Source of the DNA: Rhizobium sp. Pop5
GTDB taxonomy: Bacteria > Pseudomonadota > Alphaproteobacteria > Rhizobiales > Rhizobiaceae
Assembly (NCBI RefSeq): GCF_024721175.1
Contig: NZ_CP099399.1
Coordinates: 3,828,001 to 3,892,000 of the forward strand
DNA length: 64,000 nt
Direction: 5' to 3'
Under the pieces are notes generated by a model, which was not told the DNA's origin, made no database searches, and saw only the letters and a list, made by a program, of their open reading frames with translations. The translations under genes were made by a program, and so were the position numbers. Position 1 is the first letter of the stretch; each line of letters starts with the position of its first letter. This document shows, piece after piece, positions 6,919 through 20,449 of this stretch.

Positions 6919-9900
6919 TCACGCTCTCGCGAGACGGATGATCTCGTCGAGCACGAATTTGCGCGATTGCGGCGGCGTCAGATTGTGGTCGGCATCCGGC
7001 AGCATCAGGAGGCGCACGTTCGGATAGCGGGAAAGCTTGGCGCCGCGCGGGCCGAAGTGGAAGTAGACATGATCGAGACCGACGTCGCCCTCGCTGTAGA
7101 TCAGCGTCAGCGGCACCTTGCGTTTGCCGAACAGCGCGAAGGAATGCCGGACCTCGCGGGCGATTTGACGGCGGTCCGGAAGCAGCTCGAGCAACGGCGC
7201 GATGAAGGGCGATAGTCGCCGGCCGCCGGCGATGACGATATTCTGCAGCGCCGACACCACATCCACCTGGCCGCTGATGAGCCTTTTCAGCGTATCGAGC
7301 CGCGCCAGGCGCTGCCCGTAATCGTCGAGGCTGCGGGGCACCGCGACGACATGCTCCTTGCGCACCGGTATCTTCGGATCCCAGTAGTAGACGAAGGGAT
7401 TGATCGAGACGACGGCCTTCAGCCGCTCGTCGGCGACGCCGGCGCGGAAGGCGAGATAACCGCCGCTGCATCGGCCGGCCACCATGACGGGACCCGCGAC
7501 GACGCTTTCGAGCAGATCGAGCGCGGCGACCGCATCCGCGGTCTGCGTGCTGGAATAAAGCACCTGTTCCGGCGCATCCGGCCGCGGCGGACTGTCCCCG
7601 ACATTGGCTGAATCGAAGCGCAGAGAAACGACGCCCCGGCGCGCAAGCTCGCGCGCCATATCAACCGTCGTCCGTCCCCACCCGGCATGGCGGTCGTAGG
7701 CCGTCGACAGGAAGAGCACGGCATTGCCCTTGACTTCCCCGAGCGGCCGGCTGACGACGCCGACCAAGTGGTCATGGCTTCCGAAGCGAACCGGCGTTTC
7801 CGCAAAACCATCGCCTGAAAGCGGCGAGCTCTCGATCGTCGCCGGCGAATGAGCGGCGGAAGTCTCCGTCGTCGCCGTCTCCAGCCATTTCGTCAAGAAT
7901 TCCACGACGGCCATCGGCGTCTTGGCAAAGAGCGGATTGGTAACGAGTTCGTCGTAACCTTCGAAGGCCTTCTGCTCGACCTCGGCGCCGAGCGCCTTCA
8001 GCGCATCGGAAAAGCCGGTTTCCTCGGCCCTGACAGGACGTTCGAGAATGAGGTAGCGGGACGCTGCAAGCCCCTGCGGCGAGGCGATGTTGAGCTTGCC
8101 GAGTTCGGCGGCGATCTCGTCGGGCATGACGAGGCCGGCGATCTGCACCTTTGCGGTCTGCACATGCTCCTTGCCGAGGCCGAGATCGGCATCGATGATC
8201 TTGGACCACATGTTGAGTTCACGCAGATAGGCCCGGCCGCTCAGCACCGGCGCCAGCATGACGAGGTTGTCGATGCCATCGATCGAGGAGCCGATGCGCT
8301 GGGCAAGGGTCGCGCCGAGGCCCTGGGCGACGAGGATGATACGGTCGCAGCCGGAGAGAGACTTCAGCTCGGCGGCAGCCGCACGGATCGAATTTTCCCA
8401 GGTTTCAAGCCTTGCCGGCAGCGCACCGAAATCGAGCGCATCGCCAGTGCCGCGATAGTCGAAGCGCAGGGTCGGCACGCCGATATCCGAGAAATGCTCG
8501 GCCGCGACGCGGAAAAACTTGCGGCTGCACATTTCTTCAAAACCCCAGGGGCTGACGAAAAGCACGGCGGCCGAACGCTTTTTCACCTGCGGCTTTTCAG
8601 GCATGAACAGCCCTATCGTGCCGTCGAAGACGACGGGCAGCGCAGCACGCCGGCCCGCACCTTCGGCCGGTTCCAGCGAGAGCTCGCCTGGCGCGACCTT
8701 GGCGCGATCGGGATCTCCGGGACGCCGTGGCGCGATGAAGCCGATAACATGATTGGCCGGTCGCTGCAGCGCCGACGGCATCTTTTCGACCATCGAGCGC
8801 ATGACCTCGACATCCTCGGCGGGGACTGCGCGCAGCACCCGGAGTGCGGCGAAATGGGCGAATGTGCCGGCGATGATCGCCGAAACGAGACCGATCGGCC
8901 CATGGACGAATTCCAGAGAGGAAATCGCCGCGCAGGCGCACAGCACGGAAGCGAGCGTCACCTTCGTCAGACTTGCGTAGAGACCTGAGAGCTGGGATCC
9001 GAATCCTGTCTGTCTGATCATCATCACCGACATTGCAACGAACACGAGAATGCGCACGAGTGCGGCTCCCTCGGCTGCAAGCCTAGGTACGATCAGTAAA
9101 CAACCCACTACCATGAGGAGGCCACCTATCACACTGATGTTCAGGCGGGAGCGAGCCTTGTCCATCGACAGGAGATAGAGGCTGAGGATCTGCATGAAAG
9201 TGTAGGCGGGCGCGACCAACGCAAGCAATGCGACCACCGTGCCGCTGCGGCGGAAGGCTTCACCGAACACCACGTACACCAGTTCGCTGGAGATCGCGGC
9301 TAGACCGAGGCTCATCGGCAGCACGATATAGGCCATGCTGCGGGTGACGGCGGCGAAGACCTCGACCGGCAACGTCGCATCATCGCTGCTGTGCCGGCGC
9401 TCGGAATAATAGGGCAACAGGCTGCCGGTCATCTGGATAGGCAGTTGAAGGGCGATATTGGCGATCGACAGGCCGACGGCATAGTAGCCGACCATTTCCA
9501 CCGACCAGAACTGTTGCAGGAAGAGCAACTCGAGGCGGTTGAGAAAGATCGAATCGATGATGAACTGGATAGACAGGATGACGGAGGAGGAGGCGAGATA
9601 TTTCAGCGAGACCCCGCACCAGTCGCGCCGGGCAAGAAGGATCGGCAGCGTGGCGACGAACAGCACGAGTTGCCCCAGCGCATAACCGACGAGAACGCCT
9701 TCGACGCCATAAAGGAGGGCGCCGCCGGCGACGCCGGCAAGCTGTATGACCGAGACGGCGAGCGTCAGCTTGAAGAAGGCGCCGAGCTTCTTTTCGCCGA
9801 TCAGGTAGAATTTGACGAAGGATCCGATCGCCTGGATGAAAAACAGAACGCCCGTGACCAGGGCGACGGAGGGCGCGGTTTCCGCCCAGTGCATCTCTTC

Positions 9901-10230
9901 CGAGCTCAGGAAAAACAGCGCGTAGAGCGCCAGCAGCACGACGGTCGAAAACATCATGAAGCTGACGAGGATCGCGGCAAAACCGCGCCGGCGGCGCGCG
10001 TCGTAGCCTTCCGCAGCAAGCTGCGGCAGGGTCTTCAATAGCGTGATGCTGGAGCCGAGTTCGGCAATCGACGCGCCCGTGACCACCAGCCACAGCGAAA
10101 AGGCGACGATGCCGTTGGCTTCCGGCCCGAGGAGACGCGCAGTTACAATCGACGAGACGAAACCCGTCAGCAAGAGCAGCATTCCCGCTGCCGCGTTCAT
10201 CACCGAATTTGCGATAATACCCTTCGACAT
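6919..10230 (-). CDS. Fusion protein: Wzx-type flippase followed by two alpha/beta-hydrolase domains
   Basis: This 1103-residue protein joins three modules. Residues ~1-470 are a polytopic MATE/MVF-type polysaccharide flippase (MNAAAGMLLLLTGFVSSIV at the start, many membrane segments). Residues ~550-785 form an alpha/beta-hydrolase fold (VSPWGFEEMCSRKFFR, RFDYRGTGDA) whose nucleophile elbow reads AQGLG, with Gly637 where Ser or Cys is expected, so it is probably inactive. Residues ~815-1103 form a second hydrolase with GRCSG (Cys921), Asp1049 (EGDVG) and His1082 (DADHN), an apparently complete Cys-Asp-His set. Both resemble the hydrolases associated with exosortase-type polysaccharide loci. 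It is the last gene of the aminoacyl-carrier cluster, 88 bp after the GT4 gene. A frame error joining separate genes is unlikely, because the linkers are long and open. Confidence 0.85.
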   Translation of the reverse strand: MSKGIIANSVMNAAAGMLLLLTGFVSSIVTARLLGPEANGIVAFSLWLVVTGASIAELGSSITLLKTLPQLAAEGYDARRRRGFAAILVSFMMFSTVVLLALYALFFLSSEEMHWAETAPSVALVTGVLFFIQAIGSFVKFYLIGEKKLGAFFKLTLAVSVIQLAGVAGGALLYGVEGVLVGYALGQLVLFVATLPILLARRDWCGVSLKYLASSSVILSIQFIIDSIFLNRLELLFLQQFWSVEMVGYYAVGLSIANIALQLPIQMTGSLLPYYSERRHSSDDATLPVEVFAAVTRSMAYIVLPMSLGLAAISSELVYVVFGEAFRRSGTVVALLALVAPAYTFMQILSLYLLSMDKARSRLNISVIGGLLMVVGCLLIVPRLAAEGAALVRILVFVAMSVMMIRQTGFGSQLSGLYASLTKVTLASVLCACAAISSLEFVHGPIGLVSAIIAGTFAHFAALRVLRAVPAEDVEVMRSMVEKMPSALQRPANHVIGFIAPRRPGDPDRAKVAPGELSLEPAEGAGRRAALPVVFDGTIGLFMPEKPQVKKRSAAVLFVSPWGFEEMCSRKFFRVAAEHFSDIGVPTLRFDYRGTGDALDFGALPARLETWENSIRAAAAELKSLSGCDRIILVAQGLGATLAQRIGSSIDGIDNLVMLAPVLSGRAYLRELNMWSKIIDADLGLGKEHVQTAKVQIAGLVMPDEIAAELGKLNIASPQGLAASRYLILERPVRAEETGFSDALKALGAEVEQKAFEGYDELVTNPLFAKTPMAVVEFLTKWLETATTETSAAHSPATIESSPLSGDGFAETPVRFGSHDHLVGVVSRPLGEVKGNAVLFLSTAYDRHAGWGRTTVDMARELARRGVVSLRFDSANVGDSPPRPDAPEQVLYSSTQTADAVAALDLLESVVAGPVMVAGRCSGGYLAFRAGVADERLKAVVSINPFVYYWDPKIPVRKEHVVAVPRSLDDYGQRLARLDTLKRLISGQVDVVSALQNIVIAGGRRLSPFIAPLLELLPDRRQIAREVRHSFALFGKRKVPLTLIYSEGDVGLDHVYFHFGPRGAKLSRYPNVRLLMLPDADHNLTPPQSRKFVLDEIIRLARA

Positions 10231-10318
10231 CTGTCCATCCGCCAGGATCGGCTTACAGCCGGCTACCCGCCATCTCTAATGTGAAAATGTTAAAATAAAG
10301 CGGAGTGGCGACCTCATC

Positions 10319-11497
10319 TTAGCTCGCCTGCATCGCCGCCAACGTCTGAAACGCCTTTTCGTAATTGTGCTCGGCGAGGTAGCGCAGCAGGAACTCCCGC
10401 GCCCTCCCGGCCTTCTCTCGCGCACGCTCGGGTGCACGGAAGATATCGCTGAGGTGCGCGGCGGCGACCTCTGGAGACGGGTTCGCCCAGACCGCACCCG
10501 GCAGCCCGGCAAATTCGGGATGGGTATCGACGACGGGAATGAGAGGAGAAGCAACGAGCCAGCTATTCTCGGGGTCGCAGAAATCCACTGTGCCCGACCA
10601 GCCCGTGGAAATGACGGGTGTGCGCTGCATGATCGCCTCGGCAACCGTCAGTCCGAAACCTTCCGAGCGATGCAGCGAAAGATAGGCATCGGAAGAGCGG
10701 ATGAGGCCGTTGACCTCGGCACTCGACAGATAGTCGGTGACGATCCTGATCCGGCTATCGCCCGCGACCGAAGCGACCAGTTTGCGCAGGCCTCCATCCT
10801 TGCTCACATTGCCGTTGGCTTTCATCAACAGGAAGGCGCTCGGACATTCGGCGCTGAATATTCTGAAGGCCTCGATGACGGCCTGTGGATTCTTCCGGTT
10901 GATCGAGGAGCCGGCGCTGAAGATGAAGCTGACGAGAAAGGCGTCCTTCTCGATGCCGAACTTCTTGCGCATGCCTTCGCTCGCCGGCTTTTCGGTGACA
11001 GGATGCGGAACCACGATGACAGGCGCGTTGGTCAGCGGCGCAATCGCCCGCCGGGTGAATTCCGACGGAACGAGGATCGCATTCATGTAACGCAACCCAT
11101 TGCGCCATTCCGCCGGGACGAGTTCCAGTTCCCAGGCGAAATAGCCGATGTTGAAGGCGCGGGTGAAATTCGCGACACCCTTTTTCGAAATGGCGCGCGG
11201 CAGCATCGGCGGATTGAGATGCCAGATCCGGCTCCCCGCCGGCTTGGTGGAAAGACGCGGCGGCGCCCAGCCGGCAACGGATTTCTCATCCGGATGCGTG
11301 CTGACGTCGGAGAGCGAAATCGCCCGCCCCGCCTCGGAGAGCGCGTCGGCGCAGAGCCTGGCCGATTCGCCGACGCCGGCGGCCATCGAGAGATAACCGA
11401 CGATCTCCACCGGCTTGCGCGGATTGAAGGCAATTCGCGACCGCGGAATCAGCCGCTGCAGGACATGGGCACGCAAAAAGCGGTATGTCGTTCTCAA
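10319..11497 (-). CDS. Glycosyltransferase family 4 (TTG or upstream rare start)
   Basis: The 392-residue GT4 protein has an N-terminal VEIVGYLSMAAGVGESARL, which is glycosyltransferase-like, and a donor-site motif SLHRSEGFGLTVAEAIMQRTPVI. No ATG exists before the conserved N-terminus, so translation must start at the TTG at 11497 or at a rarer codon upstream. The frame stays open back to the stop codon of the GH2 gene (11546), in the same frame as that gene. It lies between the GH2 protein and the flippase fusion, pointing to glycan assembly. Specificity cannot be deduced. Confidence 0.8.
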   Translation of the reverse strand: MRTTYRFLRAHVLQRLIPRSRIAFNPRKPVEIVGYLSMAAGVGESARLCADALSEAGRAISLSDVSTHPDEKSVAGWAPPRLSTKPAGSRIWHLNPPMLPRAISKKGVANFTRAFNIGYFAWELELVPAEWRNGLRYMNAILVPSEFTRRAIAPLTNAPVIVVPHPVTEKPASEGMRKKFGIEKDAFLVSFIFSAGSSINRKNPQAVIEAFRIFSAECPSAFLLMKANGNVSKDGGLRKLVASVAGDSRIRIVTDYLSSAEVNGLIRSSDAYLSLHRSEGFGLTVAEAIMQRTPVISTGWSGTVDFCDPENSWLVASPLIPVVDTHPEFAGLPGAVWANPSPEVAAAHLSDIFRAPERAREKAGRAREFLLRYLAEHNYEKAFQTLAAMQAS

Positions 11498-11545
11498 ATC
11501 ACGATCTTTCTCAATGGATCGGTAGTATTCCTGGCGCGCCAGACG

Positions 11546-14026
11546 TCAGCCCTGGAGCGCGACGCGACGCGAACTGCCTAGACTTCTAATTTCGCCCGTA
11601 GGCAGAACATCGCTTTGCGTGCCGGACCGCGCCGAGAGCTTCACGCGCCGCAATGCGCCGGGGGCAAGATGGAACCAGTCGTCGTCGGCCCGGTAACCTT
11701 CAACGTCGAGATGCACCGATTGCGCCAGGCGGTCAGTCCTGAGATCGACGACCCAATCGTCGCCGTCCTTGCCGAGCGATGCTTCGATGCTTGCGTCATG
11801 GAGCGCTTTGCCTCGCCCGCAGGGAAAGTGGAAACTTTCGGCGAGAACGGCGCCGTCGGTGAGCGAGCGCAAGCGCGCAACACTTGCATCATGCGACGGC
11901 GGGCCGAAACGGAAGGCATAGGTCGTATCGAAGAAGGCGCCGAACAGCGCGGTGGAGGCGAAACGCTCCGCGCTCCTTGCCTCCAGCTTGAAGGCCGTGC
12001 TGCCACTGACGACCTGCTGCTTTCCGTCACGCAGGCAGGCTACTTCGAGTTCGACGTCGAGCGCGGTATCCGTCTCGTTGACGACATGCACGTCGAGGCC
12101 GTTGGTTCCCTCGTCGGTGAGGACCATCTGCACCGGCCGGAATGCACGGCGCATCGCATACCAGACGGGCTTCGGCTCGCCGGTGGAATCGATCACACCC
12201 CAGCCTGGACCGGGCAGCAGGTCCTGCAGCGTCCAGACGAGGGCGCCGTTACAGGCGGAACCCTTGCGCCGCCATTCCGCAAAAGTTTCCTCGATCACCT
12301 CGCCGGTGACGGCGCGTGAAAGATCGAGATAGCGGTCTGGATCTTCGCGGCGCAACCGGGCCGGATCGAAACCGTAGAGAAGCTCCAGGTAGAAATCGCG
12401 AACGTCCTCGAAATCCCAGGACGCGCCGCGGTCGCGAGGCACGCGCACCTTCCAGAGCGGACTGTGGACGGCGGGCACGTCGAGATGGCGGTGCAGCGTC
12501 CTTTGCTGCGGCACATGCGCGAAGGCGAGGCTTTCGGAGGCGAAACGCACATCGGCGCGGCGCGCATCGGCAATCGGTCGCATATAGGCGCCCACCCCGT
12601 AGTAATGGGCAACGCCTGCATTCGGCGAAAAGGGGATCGTCCCGCCATAGGGCGAGTTTGGGACGTAAGGCACGTCGGGACGCATGCGCGCTGCGATGGC
12701 CGGGATGATTTCGTCGGTGACCGGTCCGCTCCAGAATTCCGTGGGCAGGCCGAGCATTGCCGCCTGCTGATGGATCTCGCTGCCGCCGCAGAGCACGGCA
12801 AGAGAAGGGGATCCCTGGACGCCGTGCAGAAATTCCTCGACCTCGGCATGAACGTGGCCGAGAAAAGCCTTGTCGCTGCGCGGATAGTCGAAATTGGCGA
12901 ACATGAAATCCTGCCACACCATCAGCCCGAGTTCGTCGCAGAGCGCGAAGAAATCCGGAGTCTCATAGGCCATGGTGCCGCCGATACGGATCATGTTCAT
13001 GCCGGCCTGGGCGGCAAGCAGCAGGAACGGCTCGTAATCCGCACGCGCGCCGGGAAGCCGCGCGATATCGGCCGTCGTCCACACCGCCCCACGGCAGAAA
13101 ATGCGCTCACCGTTGATGAGCAGCGCGAAATCATCGCCATCGGCGCCGCGCTCCACTTCGATGCGCCGAAAGCCGGTCCTGCCGAGCGGATATTCCACCC
13201 CGTCGGAAACCAGCGTCAGATCGTAAAGACGAGGAGCCCCATGCGTATGCGGCCACCAGGGTTCGATGTCGGAAAGCTTGAGGATAGCCGAGTAATGGCC
13301 GTCGCCAATCTTCTCGAAGGGCTGTTCCATGCCGCCGCAGCGCAGCAGCATTGCCGGGTCGGCGGCATTGTTGTGCAGGGAGACGCTGAGACGGCCGACC
13401 CCGCTCTCCTCCAGCACGGAGCGAACGGAGACATTGTCGATCGAGACGAGATCGCGCCGCACCAGCGAAATCGGCCGCCATGGCCCGACGGCATGGATCT
13501 CGGGGCACCAGCCCGGCATATGGCCGAGCAGCGTTGCGCGGAAATTCTTCAGGCCCGCCGGCGTGATCATCTGCGGCCGCCAGCGCGCCCGCGGACCAGG
13601 TTCCGACAGGCGGGGACCGAGCGCCCGGAAGCAGAGCGCCAGTTCGTCGCCGCCTGAAAGCGTGACCGGGATTTCATGCGCCGTGAACATGCTTTCGGAA
13701 AAGAGGATTTCATGGCCGTTGAGGAAGACATGGCAAATCGTGGCCAGCCCTCCGAAACGCAGGATCGCGTCGCCGGGTTCCGCATCGAAAAGCCGGCAGA
13801 GATACCAGGCGTCCTTTGTATTCAGCGGTTCGGGATTTTCCCGGTCGAAGAGCCCGGCCTTTTCGAGCGCGGCGGCCACGGTACCGGGAACGGGCGCGGG
13901 TATGAACTGCGCGGAAAGGTGAATGTCGTGCGGCACGGCGCAAGCACCCGGCTCCGTCAGGATCAAGTTCCAACCTTCGGAAAGCACGCTTTCCCAGGCT
14001 CCGATGCTTGCCAAACGCCCCCGCAT
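11546..14026 (-). CDS. Glycoside hydrolase family 2-like protein (beta-mannosidase-like)
   Basis: The 826-residue protein has the GH2 layout: an N-terminal jelly-roll sugar-binding domain (WYLCRLFDAEPGDAILRFGGLATICHVFLNG), an immunoglobulin-like domain, a TIM barrel (GMNMIRIGGTMAYETPDFFALCDELGLMVWQDFMFAN) and C-terminal beta domains. The acid/base Glu is probably Glu417 in CGGSEIHQ, where most relatives have NE. The nucleophile is probably Glu498 in FASESLAF. I chose the ATG at 14026 because GGAG lies 8 bp upstream; the frame's longer start at 14059 is a TTG. No signal peptide is visible, so it is likely cytoplasmic, odd for a scavenging hydrolase but reasonable for glycan trimming or transglycosylation within this cluster. 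Confidence 0.8.
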   Translation of the reverse strand: MRGRLASIGAWESVLSEGWNLILTEPGACAVPHDIHLSAQFIPAPVPGTVAAALEKAGLFDRENPEPLNTKDAWYLCRLFDAEPGDAILRFGGLATICHVFLNGHEILFSESMFTAHEIPVTLSGGDELALCFRALGPRLSEPGPRARWRPQMITPAGLKNFRATLLGHMPGWCPEIHAVGPWRPISLVRRDLVSIDNVSVRSVLEESGVGRLSVSLHNNAADPAMLLRCGGMEQPFEKIGDGHYSAILKLSDIEPWWPHTHGAPRLYDLTLVSDGVEYPLGRTGFRRIEVERGADGDDFALLINGERIFCRGAVWTTADIARLPGARADYEPFLLLAAQAGMNMIRIGGTMAYETPDFFALCDELGLMVWQDFMFANFDYPRSDKAFLGHVHAEVEEFLHGVQGSPSLAVLCGGSEIHQQAAMLGLPTEFWSGPVTDEIIPAIAARMRPDVPYVPNSPYGGTIPFSPNAGVAHYYGVGAYMRPIADARRADVRFASESLAFAHVPQQRTLHRHLDVPAVHSPLWKVRVPRDRGASWDFEDVRDFYLELLYGFDPARLRREDPDRYLDLSRAVTGEVIEETFAEWRRKGSACNGALVWTLQDLLPGPGWGVIDSTGEPKPVWYAMRRAFRPVQMVLTDEGTNGLDVHVVNETDTALDVELEVACLRDGKQQVVSGSTAFKLEARSAERFASTALFGAFFDTTYAFRFGPPSHDASVARLRSLTDGAVLAESFHFPCGRGKALHDASIEASLGKDGDDWVVDLRTDRLAQSVHLDVEGYRADDDWFHLAPGALRRVKLSARSGTQSDVLPTGEIRSLGSSRRVALQG

Positions 14027-14042
14027 GGTCAGATCTCCGGCC

Positions 14043-15020
14043 TCAGATTCGCTCCGCAAGCGATGCCATCATGGAATCCCATGCATCGGCGGCCGGATCA
14101 AGTGCCGCCTGCAACGGCTCGAACTTCCTGCGGGCAACTGCGCGGGCAAGCTGGAACTGCACGGACTTTGCCGCATCGGAAATGCGCCGGGCATGCTCGG
14201 CGGCCGCCGCGAAGTCTGGCGAGAGCCAGACCAGGTGATCGGCCGCCAGCTCGAAATTGGCGCCGACCTGCCGAAGCGTGTTGAAGGCATATTTGTGGAA
14301 GAAACCGAACGGCCGATCGGCCACGGCTTCCACCTGCCGCGGAAAGACGCCGGCAAAGGCACGGATCGGGTTTTCGCGGGGACGCCTGGTGAAGTGAAAA
14401 CCCGCAAGCCGCCGTGCGGTTGCACGCAGATGCGCTTCGGCGGCGGGTTTTTCCGGAAATCGTGCGAATTCCGCATAGGGCAGGAACGGCGGGTCGTTCT
14501 CCGTCAGCTGCTGCTGGAACAGCCCGTCGAAATCCTCCCCTTCGAGGTGGAAATAGCCGGCATTGTGAAAATATTCGACGCGCTTTGCCACAACGTCAAG
14601 CCGGTTGATCGCAACCGTCGTCTTGCCGTGCTCCTGCCGATAGGCGGTGCCACGCGTATCCGGCATGTAGAAGGAATCCATCTCGACCAGGCAGAGACGC
14701 CCGCGCGCAATCTGCACTTCGACATGCCGTTCGACGCGGTCATAGATCGCAAGTTCGGTCGCGCGGATGCCGTAGAGCGCTTCGAGATCTTCGAGCGGTA
14801 CCTTGAAGAAGGTGAATTGATCACCCTCAAAATCCTGCGCCAGGGTAAAACCCAGCATCGCCTCGGGTGCGACGCCCCATGTGTTCAACACCTCGATCCA
14901 AAGATCGACATAACAGTTGGTCTCAGGCCAAGCGCGCTCGCCGGCATGCAGCGCGTGCTGCCGGTAAGTTTCCGGGCTGATCGCCGGGAAGACCGACGCC
15001 ATCGAGCTCATCAGCCCCAT
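14043..15020 (-). CDS. DUF1839 family protein
   Basis: The 325-residue protein matches the DUF1839 family ([61 protein letters not shown] segment). DUF1839 genes are commonly found beside amino acid:carrier protein ligases, and no function is established. I chose the ATG at 15020, preceded by GGAAAA. It overlaps the ligase gene's TGA by 10 bp, implying translational coupling. A role in receiving or transferring the aminoacyl group from the carrier protein is inference from position only. Confidence 0.75.
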
Positions 15021-15919
15021 AGCGTTTTCCGGACGCTGGCCGGCCATTGCTTTACGTCGAGGCCGTGATGATGGAAGAGGGCGAGCGCGATGCGCTCCAG
15101 GCCGAAGCCGACGCAGGCGGTGTGCGCGACGCTGCCGTCTTCGAGATTGAGACCCCACTTCAGGCCGAAAGAATCCTGATGGTAATTGAAGCTCATGCAG
15201 GCCGTCGGATTGGCGGTCGACGTGATCGGGATCAGCAATTCGAACTTCAGGTTCTGGTCACGCTGATTGTTGACCATCATCTTCCCCGCACGGCCGAAGA
15301 ACGGGTCGTTGGCAACATCGATGGTCACATCGAGGCCGACCTGCTTCATCATCTCGACGCCGCGGTCCATCCATTTCTGGCGAAAATCGGTGACGTGCTG
15401 CTCCGTTCCCATGCAGACGTATTCGCGCATGCGAAATAGCTGCTGACGGGCAGGGTCCTTCGAAGGCTCATGGCGGAAGCAATAGGACTGCAGATCGAAG
15501 AGGCCGCCCGTTTTCGGCAGGTTGCCGCGCTTGGCGACCGTCGGATAGAGCGGATAGCAGGCAGCCGGCGTCAGCACGATGTCGGTGGCCTTCTGGTCCT
15601 TGGTCCAGTCGTCGCCGACTTCCATGCATTGCAACAGGCTCATATGGTCGAGATCGCTGCCGCAGAAACTGTGCACCGTGCCGGCAAGCTGCGGGAAGCT
15701 CTTCATGTAGCCGCTCTTTTCGAAGAGTGCGCGGTTCATGCCGGGCGGGAAACGCATCGCCTCGGCGCCGTCGGCGCCGCCGAATGTATCGATCAGGCGT
15801 TCGAAGGCGGTGATGACATCTTCAAACTGGCCGCTGCGGCCATAGAGACCATCAACGCCGGTATCGATCAGCAGGCCGGACTCGAAGAGCCGGTCCAGAA
15901 ACGAGGTCTGCATATCCAT
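15011..15919 (-). CDS. Amino acid:[carrier protein] ligase (seryl-tRNA synthetase-like, no tRNA-binding domain)
   Basis: This ~302-residue class II aminoacyl-tRNA synthetase catalytic domain lacks the N-terminal coiled coil of SerRS. It has motif 2 ([11 protein letters not shown]) and motif 3 ([15 protein letters not shown]). Cys121, Glu166 and Cys269 (numbered from ATG 15919) have spacings of 45 and 103, as I recall for the zinc ligands of the characterised Bradyrhizobium enzyme Bll0957. That family (Bradyrhizobium and Agrobacterium members) activates glycine or alanine and loads it on the phosphopantetheine of a small carrier protein instead of tRNA. The carrier gene is two genes upstream. 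A GTG at 15928 is an alternative start; GGGG is better spaced for the ATG. Confidence 0.9.
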
Positions 15920-15924
15920 GACTG

Positions 15925-17106
15925 TCACCCCAGTAGGCTAGTGTCCTGCTTGTGGACGAGAAGCATGCTCGACGTGTTGCCGAGGATGCGGTCATTCGAG
16001 ATCATGAGCTGTGCGGAATGGGCGTCGCGCAGATGGCGTCCGAGGCTGAAGGGCGTGCCGTTCTTGTAGCCCATGATGCCGCAGATCAGCATCGCGTGAT
16101 TGACGATCTCCAGGATCGTCTCGGAAGAGGCGATCTTGACGTTGTTCATCGCCACCGCAAAGCCCATAGAGGACAATCTGTCCTGATCTGATTTGGCGTG
16201 CTCATAGGCCTTGAGGCCAGCAACGACATTGGATTTCACCATCTGCAGCAGGTTCGAGACCTCGGCGAGGCGCAACGCGCCAGGCGGCTGGGCATCCGGC
16301 GCCTTGCGGGCAGCGGCGCGCACGAAGGCCTGGGCGCGTGCAACGGCGTCGACCGCGATACCGTACCAGACGCCGCTCCAGAGCAGATGCGAGGAAGCGA
16401 GCATGGATTGCGCGGCGATCTCAGCGAACGGTTTCGGCAGGATCTGCTGCGCCGGCGCTTCGCCCTTGAAGAGGAAGCCGTCGGAACAGGTCCCGCGCAT
16501 ACCGAGCGTGTTCCAGGCATGCGTCTTCTCGAGCGTGTACTGGTCCTTGAGGAAGGCCGTCAGCACCTGATCGGACGAGGCTGCCTGCGTGTGGCTGCGC
16601 GAAGTGATGAGGATGGCGTCGGCATGCGAGCCGTAGGAAATGACGGTCGCATCTTTTTCGAGGCGGCAGCTATCGCCGACGACCTCGATCGCACAAATGC
16701 TGTTGCGCAGGTTGCCACCGATGCCGCCTTCGGTGGTGGCAGAGGCGATCAACAGCTGGTCGGCGGCAATGGCATGCATGAAGCTGCAGTGCCATTCGCT
16801 GTCGGCGCCGTGTTCGACGAGGCTCGACAGCTTGATATGGTGCATGGCGAAGACCATGGCGCTGGCCGCACAGGCCTGGCCGAGCATCGAGCACAGTTCG
16901 GCGATTTCGGTGATCGAGGCCGATTCACCGCCGAGATGGCGCGGCACCTGGATGCCGAGCAGCCTTTCGGCCTTCATCGCATCCACGGCTTCCCTGGGAA
17001 AGCGGCCTTCGATATCGACGGCATCGGCGTGTTTAGCCGCGACTTCGGCAACGCGGGCGACCCTTGCGACAAGACCGTCCTCTATGATCTTGACGGGGAA
17101 GTTCAT
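15925..17106 (-). CDS. Acyl-CoA dehydrogenase-like flavoprotein lacking the usual catalytic glutamate
   Basis: The 393-residue protein has the acyl-CoA dehydrogenase fold: an N-terminal helical domain ([30 protein letters not shown]), a beta domain ([27 protein letters not shown]) and a C-terminal four-helix domain. The position of the catalytic Glu (YEGT in classic enzymes) reads ILGNTSS, so the base is missing. It starts one base inside the carrier-protein stop codon (TGATG) and overlaps the ligase start, so the three genes are tightly coupled. It may oxidise or hydroxylate the aminoacyl group tethered to the carrier, as flavin dehydrogenases do for prolyl carriers in nonribosomal pathways. 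The actual reaction is unknown. Confidence 0.8.
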
Positions 17107-17357
17107 CAGGCGACCTTCCGGCTGTCCTGGATGATATCGACCGTCTTGGCGATGGCCGAGATGCTCGCGAAGGACTTGCGATTCAGCAGATTGTCGGGGA
17201 ATTCGATGTCGAAGGCCTCTTCGATGCCGAGCATCAGCTGCACCGAGGCAAAGGACGTCAGACCCGCCGCATAAAGATCGGCGTCGTCGGCGACCTGGTC
17301 GATTGCTACAGGAAGCTTGCCGAATTTGGCTACGAGGTCGCGGATTGTCGTATTCAT
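17106..17357 (-). CDS. Small acyl/aminoacyl carrier protein
   Basis: The 83-residue phosphopantetheine carrier has its attachment serine at Ser35 in GLTSFASVQLML, replacing the usual DSL by TSF as in aminoacyl-carrier proteins of this family. Acidic helix II/III residues (GIEEAFDIEFPDNLL) are present. It is the first gene of the cluster and the expected substrate of the ligase encoded downstream. It is distinct from the fatty-acid AcpP, which would carry DSLD. A 260-bp A+T-rich leader precedes it. Confidence 0.88.
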   Translation of the reverse strand: MNTTIRDLVAKFGKLPVAIDQVADDADLYAAGLTSFASVQLMLGIEEAFDIEFPDNLLNRKSFASISAIAKTVDIIQDSRKVA

Positions 17358-17620
17358 CCCATCACTCCAAGATACTCATGATCCCGAACCGGCGTTCATC
17401 GCCTTGTCATGAGCGTTCTTTTAGTGCGGAAAACAGAACATTCCGCTAATTTATTGGGTTAAAGATGATTGTTCCTCATAGTTAGGATTTTAGCGATCCT
17501 TCCGGCGAAGGAACGAATATTCATTTTACATCAATGAGCTAAGATCAATTCAGTGGAAATGCCCGACGCGGCTTGCGACATGGCGAGTACAGAAATGATA
17601 CGCAAAAGTGCCACTTCGGG
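17358..17620. other. Intergenic region upstream of the carrier-protein operon
   Basis: About 260 bp, more A+T-rich than the surroundings, between the carrier-protein start and the epmB stop. It must hold the promoter of the minus-strand aminoacyl-carrier operon. I see no convincing operator, hairpin terminator or ORF in it. Confidence 0.5.
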
Positions 17621-18673
17621 TCATTCAGCCGGCGGATAGGAATGCTCGCCGCCGCGGTAATCCGAGACGGAATAACAGCCGTCGCCCGTCGTCCGAACAG
17701 TGCTTCCGCTGACGACGGCCTTGCCGTGACCGCCCGGGATGTCGAGAATATAAGTCGGCTGGCAGAGGCCGGAAATCCGCCCGCGCAGCGCCGCGACGAT
17801 CCTCTGCCCCTCCTCGATCGTCAATCTGAAATGACTGGTGCCGGGCGCGAGATCGGGATGATGGAGGTAATATGGTTTGACGCGGATCTCGACAAAAGCT
17901 TTCATCAGCTCGGCAAGAACATCGGGATCGTCGTTGACGCCCTTGAGCAGCACCGACTGGCTGACCATGGCAATGCCGGCATCGATGAGGCGAGCACAGG
18001 CCGCCCGCGCTTCCGCCGTCAGTTCCCTGGCATGGTTGGCGTGTAGGGCGACATAGACAGTCTTGCCGCTCGCCTTCAGTGCCGCGATCAGCGCGTCATC
18101 GATCTTCTCGGGGTCGACGACGGGAACGCGCGTATGGAAACGCACGATCTTCACATGCGCAATCCCTGCGAGCGCTTCCATGATCTCGCGGAGCCGGCGC
18201 GGCGAAAGCACCAGCGGATCGCCGCCGGTCAGAATGACCTCCCAGATCTCCCGGTGGCTTCCGATATAATCGAAAGCTGCCTCCATCGCCGCCGCATCGA
18301 GCGTGCCGAGGCCCTGCGGCCCGACCATTTCGCGCCGGAAGCAGAAGCGGCAATAGACCGGGCAGACATGCACGGCTTTGAGCAGCACGCGGTCGGGATA
18401 ACGGTGCACGATGCCCTCGACAGGGCTATGCGCATGATCGCCAATCGGATCGGCACGCTCTTCGGGCGCGACGATGAGTTCGGCGGCGTCGGGCACGAAT
18501 TGCCGTGCAATCGGGTCGCTGGGATCGGCCCGATCGATCAGCCTGGTAACGGCAGGCGTCAACGCAATCGCGTAACGCGCCGCCACCCCTTCGAGCCCCG
18601 CGCGGTCGGCAGGCGCGGCAAGCCCCGCCTTCACGAGATCGTCGACGCTCTTGAGCGGTTTGACGACATTCAT
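17621..18673 (-). CDS. epmB: EF-P (R)-beta-lysine modification protein EpmB (lysine 2,3-aminomutase-like)
   Basis: This radical-SAM aminomutase of about 350 residues has the CxxxCxxC cluster motif in HVCPVYCRFCFRRE, GGDPL for SAM, and the PLP lysine in PGGHGKAVVS. It isomerises (S)-alpha-lysine to (R)-beta-lysine for attachment to EF-P Lys34. The ATG at 18673 overlaps the epmA TGA as ATGA, so translation is coupled. Together with epmA and the divergent efp it makes a complete modification module. The short length and pairing with epmA distinguish it from catabolic lysine 2,3-aminomutase (KamA). Confidence 0.92.
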   Translation of the reverse strand: MNVVKPLKSVDDLVKAGLAAPADRAGLEGVAARYAIALTPAVTRLIDRADPSDPIARQFVPDAAELIVAPEERADPIGDHAHSPVEGIVHRYPDRVLLKAVHVCPVYCRFCFRREMVGPQGLGTLDAAAMEAAFDYIGSHREIWEVILTGGDPLVLSPRRLREIMEALAGIAHVKIVRFHTRVPVVDPEKIDDALIAALKASGKTVYVALHANHARELTAEARAACARLIDAGIAMVSQSVLLKGVNDDPDVLAELMKAFVEIRVKPYYLHHPDLAPGTSHFRLTIEEGQRIVAALRGRISGLCQPTYILDIPGGHGKAVVSGSTVRTTGDGCYSVSDYRGGEHSYPPAE

Positions 18674-19731
18674 CTTCCGTACTCCGCAACCGGCGCCCAC
18701 AGCACCTGGTCGATCCGCGATGCCCCTGTCGCCAACATCACAAGCCGGTCGAAGCCGAGCGCGATGCCACTTGCCTCGGGCATCAGCGACAGCGCGGCGA
18801 GGAAATCCTCGTCGATCGGATAGGTTTCGCCATAGACACGCGCCTTCTCGGCCATCTCGATCTCGAAGCGGCGGCGCTGTTCAACGGCGTTGGTGAGCTC
18901 GCCGAAACCATTGGCAAGCTCGACGCCGCAGGCATAAAGCTCGAAACGCTCGGCAACCCTGGGGTCGCGCGCCGACGGACGCGCAAGGGCCGCCTCCGAA
19001 ACCGGATATTCGTCGAGAATGGTGATGCGGCCGAAGCCGAGATGCGGCTCGACCTTTTCGACCAGCACCCGGCTGAAGAGATCGGCCCAGCCATCGTCCT
19101 CGGCGACCCGCATTCCGACGCGCCGGAGTTCGGCCGCCAGCTGCTCGCGCTCGGTCGAACCGTCGGCGGCGACCGAAGCGAGAAGATCGATGCCGGCATG
19201 CCGCTCGAAGGCTTCGGCAACACTGATCCGCTCCGGCCCGGCAAAAGGATCACTTTCAGCGCCGCGATAGGTGAGCTTCGGCGTTTTCACCGTTTCGGCC
19301 GCCAGCGCCAGAATGCGCACGCAATCCATCATCAGGCTCTCATAGCTTTCGCCGGCCCGATACCATTCGAGCATGGTGAACTCGGGATGATGCAGCGGCC
19401 CGCGCTCCCGGTTGCGATAGACATGGGCAAAACAGGAAATGCGTTCCTCGCCCGCCGCCAGCAGCTTCTTGCAGGCGAATTCCGGCGAGGTGTGGAGGTA
19501 GAACGGCGCCGTCTGCCCGTCCGTCGTCACCGCTTCCGTTCCGAACGCATGCAGATGCGCCTCGTTGCCGGGGGAGATCTGCAGCACCGCCGTATCGACC
19601 TCGATGAAATCCTCGCGCGCGAAAAACCCGCGCAACGCCGCCTGAATCCTATTACGCCCGATCAGGAACGGGCGGCGATCGGCATGCACGGACTGGGTCC
19701 ACCAAGGGGACGCTTTGGCCGAAGAATTCAT
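18670..19731 (-). CDS. epmA: EF-P--(R)-beta-lysine ligase EpmA (PoxA/GenX)
   Basis: The 353-residue class II LysRS paralogue lacks the anticodon-binding domain. Motif 2 is visible in [24 protein letters not shown] and motif 3 in [19 protein letters not shown]. It activates beta-lysine with ATP and transfers it to EF-P Lys34. The start at 19731 faces efp, whose start lies 149 bp away on the other strand. Epm enzymes rescue translation of polyproline stretches through EF-P. The lack of a tRNA-binding domain and the neighbours make the call secure. Confidence 0.93.
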
Positions 19732-19879
19732 TCCAAGCTTTCTTCACCGGAGAAGCCGGTATGGGGGTGGCTATTTCCCGGATTTTAGGTTAGTTGCGCC
19801 CCCAAAGAAAAATATTTGCGTCTTCGGGGCGTCTCGACAGTCATCTACGACGCCGAAAGCCGAGTTACAAGGAAGTCTT

Positions 19880-20449
19880 ATGGTCAAGGTCATCGCCTCT
19901 TCGGTCCGCAAGGGCAACGTTCTCGACGTGGACGGCAAGCTCTACGTCGTTCTCACTGCCCAGAACTTTCATCCGGGCAAGGGCACGCCGGTCACCCAGG
20001 TCGACATGCGTCGCATCGTCGACGGCGTGAAGGTATCCGAGCGCTGGCGCACCACCGAACAGGTCGAGCGCGCCTTCGTCGAAGACGTCAACTTCCAATA
20101 CCTCTATGAAGACGGCGAAGGCTTCCACTTCATGAACCCTGCGAATTACGATCAGGTGGTCGTCAGCCAGGAAACCATGGGCGACCAGAAGGCCTACCTC
20201 CAGGAAGGCATGACCTGCATTCTGTCGATTCATGAAGGCATTCCGCTGGCACTCGAACTGCCGCGCCACGTTACCCTCGAGATCGTCGAGACCGAACCGG
20301 TCGTCAAGGGCCAGACGGCATCCTCTTCCTACAAGCCGGCCATGCTCTCCAACGGCATCCGCACCTCGGTTCCGCCGCATATCGATGCCGGCACCCGCGT
20401 CGTTATCGCGACCGAAGACAATTCCTACGTCGAGCGCGCCAAGGACTGA
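19880..20449 (+). CDS. efp: Translation elongation factor P
   Basis: The 189-residue EF-P has an N-terminal KOW-like domain, and the modified lysine is Lys34 in [11 protein letters not shown], exactly where EpmA attaches beta-lysine. OB domains II and III follow ([58 protein letters not shown]). I placed the start at the ATG at 19880 with AAGGAAG upstream, since the longer open frame from 19715 has no homology. It relieves ribosome stalling at polyproline. It is divergent from epmA-epmB. Confidence 0.97.

Follow-up and report, generated by a model that had tools for sequence, protein, structure and literature searches.

What purpose is served by the aminoacyl carrier that certain amino acid:[carrier protein] ligases produce is a question that has stood since 2010, and the excerpted text of a 2022 review still calls the role of this carrier unknown (PMC9437257). 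One such ligase, derived from seryl-tRNA synthetase (SerRS), is encoded in the stretch of DNA analysed here, 64,000 nucleotides of Rhizobium sp. Pop5 (contig NZ_CP099399.1, positions 3,828,001 to 3,892,000; hereafter the window), where a preliminary description had read seven genes of one strand as a single operon that aminoacylates an exported glycan. All seven minus-strand genes were found at 6919-17357, and the carrier has its Ser35 in a GLTSF motif, as described. The cassette is real and conserved, and its central enzyme, a DUF1839 protein, now has a credible candidate mechanism; the seven-gene operon was too wide a claim. On balance, we slightly favour a self-contained aminoacyl-transfer cassette acting on an amino sugar of a surface glycan or of a lipid-linked precursor.

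A five-gene core and its variable glycan genes

Gene order was compared in four sets of loci: the best 80 of 245 ligase matches, all from Rhizobium or from unspecified Rhizobiales or Rhizobiaceae, 22 further genome stretches, 13 plasmid stretches and 26 stretches from other genera of the family. The first three sets overlap (L153 and L165, for example). The fourth comes from a family sample in which 34 of 199 genomes carry the carrier; 26 of the 34 were fetched, G000, G017, G029, G667, G679 and G718 were covered separately, and G908 and G930 were left out. The window, together with seven annotated plasmid copies, supplied the sequences for the locus profiles, and the plasmid gene table (PLSDB) is incomplete.

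The genes for the carrier, an acyl-CoA dehydrogenase (ACAD)-like flavoprotein, the ligase and DUF1839 stand in that order in 79/80, 21/22, 13/13 plasmid and 26/26 other-genera stretches, which is far beyond chance. The exceptions are L096, which begins inside the ACAD gene at a contig end, and L184, a second DUF1839 at a contig end. A full glycoside hydrolase gene of family GH2 comes next in 76/80, 18/22, 12/13 and 26/26 loci; GH2 is cut by contig ends in L096 and L121 and lies in pieces in L100, L108, L153 and L165.

A two-domain hydrolase is encoded on the cassette strand in 53/80, 6/22, 5/13 and 2/26 loci and on the opposite strand in 6/80, 5/22, 2/13 and 17/26, and was not found in the fetched stretch in 21/80, 11/22, 6/13 and 7/26. 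The flippase shares the strand in 53/80, 1/22, 1/13 and 1/26, is inverted in 5/80, 1/22, 0/13 and 10/26, and was not found in 22 of the 80. A GT4 glycosyltransferase is present in 39/80 loci and in none of the 26 from other genera, while GT4, flippase and hydrolase all lie on the cassette strand in 39/80, 1/22 and 1/13. Given these counts, the cassette consists of five genes, often plus the hydrolase, and GT4 and the same-strand flippase fusion are limited to part of Rhizobium.

The preliminary description, in which all seven genes form one operon aminoacylating an exported glycan of this species, fits the common strand and short gaps of the window and the 39/80 loci where all seven share a strand. 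However, in many other loci the flippase is inverted, or GT4 and flippase are missing, and the five-gene core stays. The seven-gene set is lineage-specific, was rejected as a conserved unit and already fails as a general description; we regard the one-operon version as improbable. The carrier, flavoprotein and ligase genes are indeed conserved without GT4 and flippase, but mostly not without DUF1839 and GH2.

DUF1839 occurs in 39 of 61 relatives (37/37 of the genus, 2/24 others), in 5/385 class genomes and 16/398 phylum genomes, and in 0/14 control genomes. The ligase was found in 40/61 relatives and, at E up to 1e-10, in 17/385 class genomes, 10 of these over the cut-off. Plasmid records with the ligase number 95 and those with DUF1839 59, from nine genera. 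Among the matches listed (best 80 of 245), the window ligase is closest to that of R. vallis (99%). On Rhizobium johnstonii plasmid pRL10 (L203:10572-12099), the carrier and ACAD genes are kept and the ligase is matched only over its first 33 residues; this looks like the remnant of a plasmid copy.

From carrier loading to a candidate condensing enzyme

The preliminary description noted that the ligase-carrier reaction is known from Bradyrhizobium and Agrobacterium relatives; the correction made here is that the closest carrier is Atu2571 (PDB 2jq4; 4h2w chain C). Ligase kin in the PDB are 4h2w and 3mey (Bll0957). The conservation alignments are partly redundant: carrier Ser35 is kept in 113/113 rows, 96 of them distinct, and 116 of the 118 DUF1839 rows are distinct. 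Ligase residues C124, E154 and C272 (305-residue frame), which we take to be zinc ligands, are kept in 115/115 rows, and glycine is presumably the preferred cargo. In a first step, as shown for relatives in the literature, the ligase would make a small aminoacyl-AMP and load the phosphopantetheine arm of Ser35.

The profile matches of the ACAD-like protein fit the fold family of acyl-CoA dehydrogenases. By alignment, I369 occupies the YEGT base site (110 Ile and 4 Val among 114 rows), and residues 234-245 hold no Glu in any of the 114 rows; we assume these to be the two known catalytic-base positions of the family. The lack of Glu at either one speaks against a plain desaturase role, and a glycine cargo would offer no beta carbon for desaturation. 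In the second step the flavoprotein may oxidise the carrier-bound aminoacyl group, oxygenation or C-N oxidation being likelier than desaturation. Its AlphaFold2 model was poor (pLDDT 46.7) and was not used. On an Agrobacterium vitis plasmid (L210:7046-10602), a single run of genes encodes a diiron oxygenase, a nitronate monooxygenase, a SerRS-like protein and a phosphopantetheinyl transferase.

For DUF1839, a fold search gave a whole-length match to CcbD, which joins carrier-bound proline to an amino-octose with an amide as product. Candidates for the first two residues of a Cys-His-Glu triad like that of CcbD and LmbD are Cys36 and His131 (24 and 119 in alignment A1), conserved in 115/118 and 118/118 rows. 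BtrH was not among the fold-search chains listed, which proves nothing. In a third step, suggested by fold and conserved residues, the DUF1839 cysteine would accept the aminoacyl group and pass it to an amine as CcbD does. DUF1839 is now best read as an enzyme that hands the carrier-bound amino acid on to a sugar amine. This reading turns a hint from gene order into one directly testable reaction, with Cys36 as the target for a mutant and the amino acid in purified surface glycan as the analytical target.

The acceptor and its rivals

Neighbouring genes were surveyed in 21 genomes, namely the first 17 DUF1839 genomes found outside the genus and four of the genus. Wzz or Wzx lies within 20 kb of DUF1839 in 10 of them (expected 1.07, P 1.5e-8) and within 10 kb in five (expected 0.54, P 1.5e-4); P takes placement to be random and the genomes to be independent, and neighbours are missed where DUF1839 is near a contig end, as some copies are. 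The companions include a WcaJ-type transferase, ManC and Wzc (L185), ManC (L198), Wza, O-antigen ligase and GT4 (L189), and GumC with the O-antigen ligase family in Shinella. L192 has a polysaccharide deacetylase, a sugar-transfer ATP-grasp protein and a flippase that narrowly passes its cut-off (28.9 of 28.2 bits), and L184 a MatE-type protein that falls below its cut-off. Genes for a UDP-sugar dehydrogenase and four glycosyltransferases come within ~23 kb after the cassette in G979, an Agrobacterium-type genome. Companion genes vary by lineage, and a linkage that recurs with differing sugar genes is stronger evidence than a single conserved operon would be.

In the excerpted text of PMC9790009, a yejABEF mutant of A. 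tumefaciens gained fitness from mutations in Atu2577, 2582, 2583, 2590 and 2592, and phenazine resistance reportedly requires the cluster. We assigned the G979 genes to Atu numbers, and DUF1839 to Atu2574, ourselves, going by order and function. From such neighbourhoods, a fourth step would place the aminoacyl group on an amino sugar of a surface glycan or lipid-linked precursor, which a Wzx-type exporter, in part of Rhizobiaceae fused or next to hydrolases, would carry out. GH2 residues E428 and E509 (837-residue frame), presumably both catalytic Glu of beta-mannosidases, are kept in 108/108 rows in a region that aligns with solved mannosidases, and GH2 may trim a mannoside-type part. As regards the aminoacyl transfer to an exported glycan that was first proposed, transfer to a sugar amine fits the DUF1839 fold match and the enriched polysaccharide-export neighbours, and the seven-gene operon drops out of the proposal.

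Several observations weigh against such a cassette. DUF1839 is missing in 5/10 over-cut-off ligase genomes of the class sample, so the ligase also serves other uses, and Bacillota relatives of the ligase stand in apparent small-molecule clusters. GH2 is absent from L144 and L152, which keep the first four genes. The likeness to CcbD is one of fold, drawn without residue-level superposition, and would liken DUF1839 to CcbD in working, not place it in the CcbD family; profile A1 found no PDB chain at E up to 10, and the excerpted PMC10318531 presents a DUF1839 model with a swapped Cys-Thr/Ser-His triad. Neither Wzz nor Wzx lies within 20 kb in 11/21 genomes, and two of the ten positives (G000 and G016) rest on the fused flippase itself. 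The plasmid stretches of Azospirillum, Mycetohabitans and Caballeronia (18-21 kb, from the incomplete gene table) hold no annotated glycosyltransferase or flippase: only an acyltransferase and an LTA-synthase-family gene lie near the Mycetohabitans cassette, A. lipoferum has glycosidases and an ABC transporter as neighbours, and Caballeronia has neither.

These plasmid stretches would suit a cassette that makes a soluble aminoacyl-sugar or aminoacyl-amine (a signal, antibiotic or metallophore), with polysaccharide genes nearby by chance or shared regulation. CcbD is itself a small-molecule pathway enzyme, as are CtaG and AziU3, and in Priestia the carrier, ACAD and ligase cluster with an ATP-grasp protein, an alanine permease and a racemase. 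The Wzz/Wzx enrichment, however, argues against a soluble product, as do the Wzc, Wza, ManC, WcaJ-type or O-antigen ligase genes that adjoin the cassette in several genera; we consider such a product unlikely. In full, the run on the Priestia plasmid (L168:8166-16713) comprises acpS, carrier, ACAD, ligase, transporter, ATP-grasp, hydrolase, alanine permease and racemase, and has the look of a small-molecule cluster that shares these first steps.

Alternatively, the acceptor might be a protein or lipid, or a nucleotide sugar used only in the cytoplasm. Papain-like folds also act on proteins and peptides, according to the text excerpted from PMC10318531; however, GH2 as the next gene in 76/80 and 26/26 loci points to a sugar, and we find this alternative quite improbable.

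The hydrolase domains bear on the kind of bond. In the first, the nucleophile is mostly lost (elbow Gly 66, Arg 11 and Ser 2 among 79 rows), and in the second an elbow Cys is invariant (79/79). The domain with the cysteine may release or re-transfer misplaced acyl groups. The invariant Cys could also be cited for O-ester aminoacylation, as in teichoic acid D-alanylation, in which case the cysteine alpha/beta-hydrolase would be the actual transferase, assisted by DUF1839; distant ligases also adjoin MBOAT genes in two loci, one with a carrier-like open reading frame (ORF). However, the hydrolase was not found in 21/80 and 7/26 fetched stretches, all of which have DUF1839, and among the fold relatives of DUF1839 CcbD forms an amide. 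An ester route is accordingly rated very improbable.

The distant SerRS-like ligases have neighbourhoods of their own. In L158 (8064-11111), one (NF005479 158 bits, below the cut-off) lies between an MBOAT gene and the carrier-like ORF (PP-binding 18.7 bits, below the cut-off), possibly a Dlt-like set with a synthetase-derived ligase. Another adjoins MBOAT in L155, and a third, in L157 (1-20000), stands amid NeuB-like and other sugar genes named by eye, with a neighbour at 8495-9493 that resembles LpxD below the cut-off.

Returning to transfer onto a surface glycan, second copies of the cassette lie immediately behind a nif run on symbiotic plasmids, mostly of bean rhizobia (L165, L204, L205, L206, and also L100 and L108). 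The distance from the end of this run (nifH to fdxB, of which the gene table lacks single members for L205 and L206) to the start of the cassette is 0.4-0.8 kb in R. acidisoli, two R. gallicum strains and Rhizobium sp. C104. Judged by ORFs, with the nif genes identified by eye, L100 and L108 are laid out alike. Both R. gallicum copies carry an intact annotated GH2; the gene is broken up in L165, L100 and L108, and the C104 ligase match is split in two. The dN/dS ratios of carrier, flavoprotein, ligase and DUF1839 in three nif-linked copies are 0.04-0.23, which fits purifying selection. The stretches of the other plasmid copies contain no nif genes. A sigma-54 pattern gave no match in the nif-linked copies, not even upstream of nifH where one was expected, and is uninformative. 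NifA-like sites occur upstream of nifH and at scattered places further downstream; in L165, L204, L205 and L206 the interval from nifH to the carrier gene has no such site. In L165, a small ORF with a SyrA match below the cut-off lies between the nif run and the cassette. That Proteobacteria add amide-bound oxidised amino acids to surface polysaccharide without tRNA, the nif-linked copy acting inside nodules, is a tentative proposal that we find conceivable. If CcbD-type transfer to a surface glycan is real, Gram-negative bacteria, with plant symbionts among them, would aminoacylate polysaccharide by a route that needs no tRNA.

Window layout and known systems

The carrier gene shares 1 nt with the ACAD gene, and DUF1839 shares 10 nt with the 3' end of the ligase gene; gaps of 48 nt and 88 nt separate GH2 from GT4 and GT4 from the flippase. 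The starts of ligase (ATG 15919), DUF1839 (ATG 15020) and GH2 (ATG 14026) were taken from an annotated near relative and then checked. The transcript likely starts in the gap before the carrier gene; a promoter and terminator consensus scan was uninformative (promoter-like sites 3 against 2.1 expected, terminator-like 16 against 9.4). Just upstream, at 17621-20449, lie a kamA-like gene, epmA and an ORF annotated efp in a near relative. They include another synthetase paralogue and are a separate pathway. EpmA and KamA were rejected as members of the system: KamA is near the cassette in only 8/26 other-genera loci, and EpmA is by family an enzyme of elongation factor P.

Features of the cassette region in the window
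Feature	Coordinates	Strand	Basis
Carrier protein, 83 aa, phosphopantetheine site Ser35	17106..17357	-	PF00550 34.7 bits
ACAD-like flavoprotein, 393 aa	15925..17106	-	PF02771 and PF00441 over cut-off
Amino acid:[carrier protein] ligase, SerRS-derived, 302 aa	15011..15919	-	NF005479 525.2 bits, cut-off 357
DUF1839, 325 aa, candidate CcbD-type condensing enzyme	14043..15020	-	PF08893 450 bits
GH2, beta-mannosidase-like	11546..14026	-	PF22666; PDB 5n6u E 7e-53
GT4 glycosyltransferase, lineage-specific addition	10319..11497	-	PF00534 37.0 bits
Wzx-type flippase part of fusion protein (whole fusion 6919-10230), ~residues 1-480	8791..10230	-	PF13440 45.8 bits
Two alpha/beta-hydrolase domains of flippase fusion	6919..8670	-	TIGR03101 and TIGR03100, below cut-off
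263-nt gap, kamA-like gene to carrier gene	17358..17620	.	Seen in window gene layout

The idea that this system ligates an amino acid to a surface sugar had already been published. In the excerpted text of PMC2922099, a note in proof of 2010 predicted a StRS-based pathway in which an amino acid is joined to the amino group of a cell-surface sugar, and named Atu2574 as the ligase to the sugar and the redox enzyme as the modifier. The main text, as excerpted, has no fold or mechanism for Atu2574 and no enrichment test; the present analysis adds a fold match, a candidate mechanism and such a test. No later test of the idea was found in the literature searched, in which subscription journals are thinly covered, and searches on exosortase hydrolases, or on the aminoacyl carrier with rhizobium or polysaccharide, found nothing to the point.

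Bll0957 and the Atu2573-Atu2571 pair belong to the same ligase family (PDB 3mey, 4h2w), and Atu2571 is the carrier closest to that of the window. Only the loading reaction is described for them in the excerpted texts of PMC2922099 and PMC9437257, whereas a downstream transferase is proposed here. Both hydrolase domains matched the XrtA/exosortase-associated hydrolases 1 and 2 (TIGR03100, TIGR03101), in like order in the four proteins scanned, but the two domains are fused to each other, in the window also to the flippase, and all scores are under the curated cut-offs (70.9 of 168.45 and 72.7 of 202.75 bits). DUF1839 is a candidate for a step like that of CcbD, to which, as to LmbD, its sequence similarity is not detectable. 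CcbD and LmbD are fed by an adenylation domain in an antibiotic cluster, whereas the window cassette has a SerRS-derived ligase and is often beside polysaccharide genes.

In the Dlt system of Gram-positive bacteria, as far as the excerpted source describes it, a ligase and a carrier likewise feed amino acids to a surface polymer. The window carrier scores below the cut-offs of the DltC models (29.0 of 68 and 20.1 of 52.35 bits), and DltA, DltB and DltD have no match in the window cassette at the Pfam and NCBIfam limits used. The Dlt linkage is an ester, whereas an amide is expected of the window cassette.

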